Position numbers and translations under genes: made by a program
The notes under the pieces: generated by a model
What the model saw: only the letters and a program-made list of their open reading frames with translations
Databases searched by the model: none
Told to the model about the DNA's origin: nothing
DNA from: Chryseobacterium bernardetii
GTDB lineage: Bacteria; Bacteroidota; Bacteroidia; Flavobacteriales; Weeksellaceae
Reading direction: 5' to 3'
Assembly (NCBI RefSeq): GCF_003815975.1
Contig: NZ_CP033932.1
Location: 620,001 to 684,000, forward strand
DNA length: 64,000 nt
Shown: in pieces, positions 49,697-50,408 of the stretch
How positions within the stretch are numbered: position 1 is the first letter of the stretch
Layout of the letters: each line of letters opens with the position of its first letter

Positions 49697-49769
49697 ACAA
49701 TTTTAATTTAAACAAATTTAAGGATTTTAAAACTTTTCTAAACCTGCTGTTGCCTGCTAACAAGATACA

Positions 49770-49799
49770 AAAAAGAGAGAAATTAATTCCTCTCTTTTT
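49770..49799 (-). terminator. intrinsic terminator of the Cys-rich peptide gene
   Basis: Stem AAAAAGAGAGAAATT / AATTCCTCTCTTTTT with one mismatch; T-run on the minus strand. It lies 33 bases after the peptide stop at 49832 and 74 before the O-methyltransferase start, so the peptide gene is its own transcription unit. Confidence 0.85.
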
Positions 49800-49831
49800 C
49801 TTGGTATATCAAACTTTTATACAAAAAGTCA

Positions 49832-49987
49832 TTATATGGCTATACAATATTGTCTTATACCAGCACACACCCATCCCGGGCAACACTTTGTCTGTAGGCT
49901 GGTACAAAATATCTGCGGGTTACACACTGTAACAGCACCTTGTACAGTTTTCATTTCTCCTCTTGAAAGTTTTTTTGAATTTTTCAT
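49832..49987 (-). CDS. bacteriocin-like Cys-rich peptide with leader
   Basis: A 51-residue reading frame beginning MKNSKKLSRGEMKTVQGA, which has the shape of the short Flavobacteriia leader peptides annotated as bacteriocin-like (MKN-x-KKLSR-x-E/L-K-x-(V/I)-x-G-G/A). The predicted core of about 33 residues follows the Gly-Ala cleavage-type site: VTVCNPQIFCTSLQTK, then CCPGWVCAGIRQYCIAI, with six cysteines at 22, 28, 35, 36, 41 and 48. It has a terminator of its own and no neighbouring C39 peptidase-transporter or modification gene in the window. Whether it is exported, disulfide-bonded or otherwise modified is inference. Confidence 0.75.
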   Translation of the reverse strand: MKNSKKLSRGEMKTVQGAVTVCNPQIFCTSLQTKCCPGWVCAGIRQYCIAI

Positions 49988-50201
49988 AATTATTTTGTTT
50001 AGTAATAATTTCCTACTCTTTAAGATTTTCGGATACCTCTATATTTTATTTCCTTATATGGAGATTTAAATATACATATTATTTTATTAATCAGATAATT
50101 AAATTTAAAATAAAATATTTTAGGGAATTCAATAATCTAACTCTCGGGGAAAATCCCATCTAAAATACCGTGAAAATACGGATGTTATTTTTGTGGTATT
50201 A

Positions 50202-50408
50202 ATGATAAGTTTGCAAAGAGAACGAAGGGGTAAAAACACTAGAAAACAAATGATTGCAGAAGATCAACCACAAACTAACCATGAGAATCAAAAAAAAGTA
50301 CTTCCCAAAGGAAGTACACAGTCTTCTGCAAAAAAAAACAAGACTGAAATATCCAATCAATTTTTACGACGAATTATTTCCCTTTTGAAAAAAGAAGAAT
50401 TAATTTGA
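50202..50408 (+). CDS. possible small basic protein
   Basis: 68 codons starting MISLQRERRGKNTRKQMIAE, very rich in Lys/Arg/Gln, no domain recognised. A TATTTTTG box (50186-50193) lies nine bases before the ATG and a terminator (50420-50450) follows the stop. Against it: the internal hairpin 50298-50317 would be an odd choice in a coding sequence and the composition could be chance in A-rich DNA. Uncertain. Confidence 0.3.
   Translation: MISLQRERRGKNTRKQMIAEDQPQTNHENQKKVLPKGSTQSSAKKNKTEISNQFLRRIISLLKKEELI
50291..50317 (-). terminator. second hairpin terminator facing the M1 peptidase gene
   Basis: GTACTTCC-CAAA-GGAAGTAC, 8-bp perfect stem, followed on the minus strand by seven T. It lies behind the terminator at 50420-50450 for the minus-strand transcript; two terminators in a row or an unannotated minus-strand RNA between them are both possible. 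Confidence 0.55.

Follow-up and report, generated by a model that had tools for sequence, protein, structure and literature searches.

A leader-bearing, six-cysteine peptide gene of Chryseobacterium bernardetii with a knottin-like core, a distant candidate exporter locus and a DUF805b RNA element

The described systems closest to the gene reported here are the class II double-glycine bacteriocins, the squash-type knottins and the graspetide loci of its own genus. The gene, of 51 codons, lies in a 64,000-nucleotide stretch of Chryseobacterium bernardetii (positions 620,001 to 684,000 of contig NZ_CP033932.1, assembly GCF_003815975.1; hereafter the window) from a genome of one contig, 5.32 Mb, and belongs to NF047792, the "CCPGW family putative bacteriocin", which in the NCBI library is a name only. 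With double-glycine bacteriocins such as carnobacteriocin B2 it shares the leader pattern and the G-A/G-G site; class IIa bacteriocins have two cysteines, whereas the CCPGW peptide has six and no exporter or immunity gene was found beside it. Inhibitor cystine knots have the cysteine order C-C-CC-C-C with suitable loop lengths, and the mini-proteins of this kind (Pfam Toxin_12, squash-type knottins) resemble the peptide in their six cysteines, the third and fourth adjacent, in similar loop lengths and in a C-terminal hairpin (modelled for our peptide), but the CCPGW peptide is bacterial and carries a double-glycine leader. PMC6024828 describes disulfides 1-4, 2-5 and 3-6 as forming the knot. 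Grasp-with-SPASM loci of the chryseoviridin type occur in the same genus, and in this genome an exporter and an HlyD protein stand beside the maturases, an arrangement in keeping with PMC8939145, where C39-ABC and HlyD proteins are frequent neighbours of ATP-grasp loci; the CCPGW precursor is encoded away from the maturases and has a leader of another family. Searches of the open-licence literature found no paper on bacterial knottins and none on the CCPGW family or DUF805b by name, absences that are weak evidence, and for cystine knot together with Chryseobacterium returned off-topic papers only.

A sequence-only reading of the window had picked out a 51-codon open reading frame (ORF) with a leader and six cysteines and had likened it to flavobacterial bacteriocin-like peptides. 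The ORF and its cysteine pattern, C-x5-C-x6-CC-x4-C-x6-C, are found as described at 49832-49987, and the likeness is borne out by an NCBIfam scan, in which the peptide matches NF047792 over its full length and above the curated cut-off of 80 bits (Table 1) and its leader matches the Chryseobacterium leader domain NF047798 at 36.3 bits (cut-off 23.5). The window contains 90 ORFs of 40-70 codons, and no other one has six or more cysteines. By these comparisons the ORF is a real gene, and its family, NF047792, is one that NCBI has already catalogued; the suggestion that such a peptide would be new for the region consequently fails, given the curated family and the presence in this genome of 23 leader genes that exceed the curated cut-off. 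The first interpretation was otherwise largely right, although it overlooked the knottin-like core, the DUF805b RNA and the locus encoding a C39 exporter and a VKOR-thioredoxin protein, and did not give the minus strand on which the gene lies.

One copy over the NF047792 cut-off is present in 68 of 173 Chryseobacterium genomes and in none of the 147 other genomes of the taxonomic family that were searched (320 in total), ten of which gave weak matches only; named relatives are Chryseobacterium (three of six proteins in one set, 32 of 32 loci in another). Genome G128 (G, L and A numbers are our handles for genomes, loci and alignments), whose match spans 14-50 and falls below the cut-off, is excluded from the 68. 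All 68 genes keep the ATG start and all six cysteines, with a spacing of 5-6-0-4-6 in 35 and 5-5-0-4-6 in 33, and NP after the first cysteine, GW two residues past the CC and Y before the last cysteine are invariant. Conservation of the frame had been proposed as a check, and the frame is kept: across all pairs of the 68 genes the ratio of nonsynonymous to synonymous differences (pN/pS, from pooled pair counts, tree structure not corrected for) is 0.35 for the whole gene, 0.29 for the core and 0.41 for the leader. For the few residues that separate the presumed cleavage site from the first cysteine it rises to 0.88, and in the gene's own clade of 35 genomes to 2.9; compared with the gene itself, this clade gives 0.07 for the core, and 0.71 for the leader, a value that rests on very few changes and is less clear than that of the core. 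As these sequence comparisons indicate, the core is under purifying selection and the stretch before the first cysteine is free to vary. The 35-row alignment (A2) leaves out P0004 (long N-terminal extension), L187 (peptide identical to that of L186) and the distant L201 and L202, and the 28-row alignment (A3) leaves out the P proteins, L187, L199, L200, L201 and L202. In all 68 loci the gene lies 114-408 bases before the same methyltransferase gene on the same strand; it is therefore an inherited orphan with a fixed place.

The cysteine order of the core is C-C-CC-C-C in 68 of 68 members. Toxin_12 is matched at E <= 0.1 by all 35 CCPGW members scanned, the peptide itself scoring 21.1 against a cut-off of 21.0. 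Shuffling the peptide with its cysteines fixed abolished the match in ten of ten cases at the same threshold; we accordingly reject cysteine spacing alone as its cause, on what is a small control with one peptide. The sister genes were likewise considered as knottins and rejected, none of ten scanned paralogs matching at E <= 0.1. The AlphaFold2 model of the core (mean predicted local distance difference test score, pLDDT, 85.9) shows a hairpin at the C terminus, accompanied by a short third strand. The CCPGW core would most likely fold like a cystine knot, with three disulfides. Convergence is the more likely source of the likeness to knottins, rather than shared descent.

The leader points to a C39 peptidase-ABC exporter. 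In PMC6363468, C39 peptidases are described as cutting at G-G, G-A or G-S sites, ComA as following the rule L(-12)xxxE(-8)L(-7), and a groove as receiving positions -4, -7 and -12. Relative to the predicted cut, the CCPGW leader places L7 at -12, E11 at -8, M12 at -7, V15 at -4, G17 at -2 and A18 at -1. All 68 leaders have V, L or I at -4, M or L at -7 and L, M or I at -12; position -8 is E in 37 and otherwise Q, A or K, and the dipeptide at the cut site is GA in 66 and GS in two. The leader, as a sequence, thus fits the C39 rule. The top PDB sequence match of the precursor profile is carnobacteriocin B2 (E 0.21), across the leader and the start of the core.

A C39 peptidase-ABC transporter, which the sequence-only reading had suggested looking for elsewhere in the genome, is indeed present: there are two strong C39 matches, of 126.4 and 100.5 bits, with a second C39 locus near 1312315 on the contig, and the stronger belongs to an exporter gene about 1.2 Mb from the peptide gene, in whose sequence the catalytic Cys, His and Asp of the peptidase are seen by eye. 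Also encoded in the exporter locus are an HlyD protein, a leader peptide, a VKOR-thioredoxin protein, which gave no NCBIfam match, and a grasp-with-SPASM pair (a radical SAM/SPASM protein and an ATP-grasp protein) with its own candidate precursor, TIGR04139. The exporter is matched at 1e-50 in 173 of 173 genomes, more weakly in ten (six at 1e-201 to 1e-226, four near 1e-74), which by a cut of our own we scored as lacking it, while G128 (75% complete, 1.2e-138) was scored as having it. The VKOR-thioredoxin protein is matched at 1e-30 in 162 of 173 genomes and leader peptides are present in 160; of the 11 genomes without a VKOR-thioredoxin match, ten are also without leader peptides. Exporter and leader peptides occur together in 159 genomes, the exporter only in four, leaders only in one and neither in nine (Fisher p ~2e-11); for the VKOR-thioredoxin protein the corresponding counts are 159, three, one and ten (p ~6e-13), both p values ignoring ancestry.

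A DUF805b RNA (RF02914) lies in the presumed 5' untranslated region of the peptide gene, with a mismatch at one of its four stem pairs. Elements over the gathering threshold directly precede 62 of the 68 CCPGW genes, at 20-24 nt from the ATG in the 26 plus-strand loci, and inspection by eye shows a related sequence in the remaining six loci, with a simple pattern fitting four. Eight elements exceed the threshold in this genome. By eye, five stand directly before leader peptides (the CCPGW peptide, that of the exporter locus and three others), an arrangement with a chance of ~7e-17 under uniform placement, two before short secreted-looking proteins and one before a tail-collar-like gene. Across the genus, 16 of 28 high-scoring elements precede leader peptides by eye; these 28, a non-random sample, are those read of 30 loci fetched, L158 and L161 not being among them. 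In at least 26 of 59 genomes DUF805b and the exporter are no more than 1.5 kb apart, a count that gives no rate, coming from 29 genomes looked at, partly chosen as near, of which 28 had an exporter entry. DUF805b probably controls the timing of peptide production.

Elsewhere in the genus DUF805b precedes a gene with a caspase domain and one with a phage-tail-collar domain (L147, L171), a class I lanthipeptide leader (L167) and a DUF6520-like gene just under its cut-off. A second DUF805b on the opposite strand is present in 27 of the 68 CCPGW loci, e.g. at L087:2383-2417 (+). In the 11 such loci read it precedes one protein family, of 197 residues in ten and truncated at the end of the locus in the eleventh; the copy in L146 gave no Pfam or NCBIfam match.

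The cmscan output draws DUF805b as a single 4-bp stem, and our alignments add to that stem a 3-bp pseudoknot helix, in which nCC pairs with GGn. In alignment A4 (31 of 38 elements, without L144, L145, L148, L150, L152, L158, L161, some omitted as near-duplicates and others for no strong reason) the Rfam stem and the second helix pair in 95.9% of cells, and the second helix alone in 98.9%. Its outer pair varies among U-A, G-C, C-G, U-G and A-U, one pair is invariant and one almost constant; the covariation score reaches 0.507, with 0.137 for shuffles and no more than 0.104 for slid partners, in a test that was not blind, as the second helix was first seen in A4. A later count covered sequences outside A4 or only partly used there, namely the seven left-out elements and, from CCPGW loci, 61 first elements and 27 second ones (of the second ones, three coincide with L146, L154 and L165 of A4); among distinct sequences the second helix pairs in six of six, 18 of 18 and 36 of 36, through U-A, C-G and wobble pairs, with fewer exchanges than in A4. 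Given this pairing and covariation, a compact H-type pseudoknot is the best depiction of DUF805b.

Table 1. Features of the peptide gene and its candidate partners. Positions are those of the window, except for the exporter and the VKOR-thioredoxin protein, which are given on the genome contig.
Feature	Position	Strand	Basis or remark
CCPGW-family precursor gene, 51 codons	49832..49987	-	stop codon 49832-49834; NF047792, 98.2 bits
Leader, residues 1-18, ending Gly17-Ala18	49934..49987	-	NF047798 match; residues counted by column, 68 genes
Predicted mature core, residues 19-51, six Cys, knottin-like spacing	49835..49933	-	predicted cut site
DUF805b RNA (RF02914), presumed 5' untranslated region	50010..50042	-	43.0 bits vs gathering 35.6; 22 nt before ATG
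Intrinsic-terminator-like hairpin between peptide and methyltransferase genes	49769..49800	-	fold
Near match to -7 box, TATATTTA	50067..50074	-	weak; mostly kept in 35-genome clade alignment
C39-ABC exporter	1866008-1868197		PF03412, 126.4 bits at 1867823-1868188
VKOR + thioredoxin protein	G000:C1:1868544-1870049 (L122:8544-10049)	-	502 residues; CRVC and CGFC motifs

Together, these results make it reasonably probable that the gene is an orphan precursor of a secreted, disulfide-rich and knot-like mini-protein that is controlled by DUF805b, exported through a C39 transporter and active outside the cell. We propose that the gene would be transcribed alone, into an mRNA carrying the DUF805b pseudoknot just before the ribosome start, and that DUF805b probably sets when the peptide and a few sister peptides are produced. 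The C39 peptidase-ABC exporter would recognise the leader, cut after Gly17-Ala18 and export the core, and the VKOR-thioredoxin protein encoded beside it may help to form three disulfides; the product of about 33 residues would most likely fold as an inhibitor-cystine-knot-like mini-protein and act extracellularly, where competing with other bacteria is its most plausible role. That it is a bacteriocin is NCBI's guess and, at about even odds, our own. A bolder version, in which the CCPGW peptides are a true cystine-knot family, one C39 exporter and its VKOR-thioredoxin protein fold and export many orphan precursors from across the genome, and the pseudoknot, standing before the knottin, several other precursors and the exporter-linked peptide, switches on a core part of this arsenal, is one we doubt; its probability is set lower because only four of the 23 leader genes over the cut-off, plus one below it, have a DUF805b, the other 19 being without.

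That count speaks against a general regulon, and further points weigh against what we propose: genome G068 has four leaders and neither the exporter nor the VKOR partner, which counts against a strict link; the Foldseek matches of the core model are not significant, even if 13 of the 15 are, going by their titles, small cystine-rich peptides of animals or plants; and no immunity gene was found among the genes adjacent to the CCPGW gene. The Foldseek result would suit an exported, disulfide-bonded peptide without a knot, such as a simple bacteriocin stabilised by cystines in a different disulfide order, and so would the family's annotation as a putative bacteriocin and the sister genes, with their many other cysteine patterns and ten scanned members that do not match Toxin_12. 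Yet such a peptide fits poorly with a family in which Toxin_12 matches 35 of 35 members vs none of ten cysteine-fixed shuffles, and with a modelled hairpin and third strand; we consider it unlikely. That no immunity gene was found beside it bears on whether the product is a weapon at all, or a secreted signal, inhibitor or surface-lifestyle factor made together with other DUF805b genes. A single over-cut-off copy per genome, always before the same methyltransferase, and the caspase-domain and tail-collar-domain genes behind DUF805b in relatives would also agree with this, whereas the presence in one genome of many paralogous leaders whose cores differ, and a freely varying stretch before the first cysteine, would seem to fit antagonism better. 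A non-weapon is a serious possibility, if one that we would not bet on.

An enzymatically modified product is improbable. In that case the peptide would be a ribosomally synthesised and post-translationally modified peptide (RiPP) whose cysteines or other residues are processed, for instance by the grasp-with-SPASM pair, and not just oxidised; the radical SAM/SPASM and ATP-grasp enzymes do adjoin the exporter, and DUF805b also precedes the lanthipeptide leader of L167. But the pair has its own candidate precursor, TIGR04139, beside it, no maturase adjoins the peptide gene, and disulfides are the outcome that the VKOR-thioredoxin protein speaks for. As for a chance ORF, which the shortness and isolation of the frame might suggest, 68 orthologs with frame, leader, start codon and cysteines kept already refute it, and we give it practically no weight.

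If the secreted, knot-like mini-protein that we favour is confirmed, a "putative bacteriocin" family acquires a fold, an exporter, an oxidase and a regulator that can be tested, bacteria offer knot-like scaffolds that are gene-encoded, and coherent targets emerge for an uncharacterised class of RNA, five of the eight DUF805b copies in this genome preceding leader peptides. What is added here to the catalogued family is the knottin-like core, the link to an exporter and an oxidase, and a pseudoknot RNA common to some of the sister genes.

The immediate neighbours of the peptide gene offer little by way of partners, its flanking enzymes being a generic methyltransferase and an aminopeptidase only. 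The methyltransferase gene starts 136 bases past the peptide stop on the same strand, as the sequence-only reading had stated, and the doubt it voiced about a link was justified: a terminator-like hairpin lies between the genes, and the NCBIfam matches of the methyltransferase are generic and far below cut-off, for which reasons we rejected it as a partner. The terminator assigned to the peptide gene is seen in a computed fold as a 14-bp hairpin followed by a T run, starting ~31 bases past the stop, and not 33 as first noted. The flavobacterial -7 box has the consensus TAnnTTTG; no exact copy occurs upstream of the peptide gene, and a near match is listed in Table 1. The peptide gene would appear to form its own transcription unit. 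A divergent small ORF at 50208-50405, without an NCBIfam match, was considered as an immunity gene and rejected, since its homologs occur even where no CCPGW gene exceeds the cut-off (G003, G146 and G072, for example) and several have internal stops; they are present in 47 of 59 sampled genomes.

The paralogous leader genes of this genome have unlike cores with many other cysteine patterns. Five leader peptides are clustered at G000:C1:2806399-2807384, four with cores of the pattern C-x5-C-x4-CC-x3-C-x4-C and one with C-x5-C-x4-CC-x4-C-x7-C, and the leader peptide at G000:C1:4027881 (L052) has a long glycine/valine-rich repeat core.
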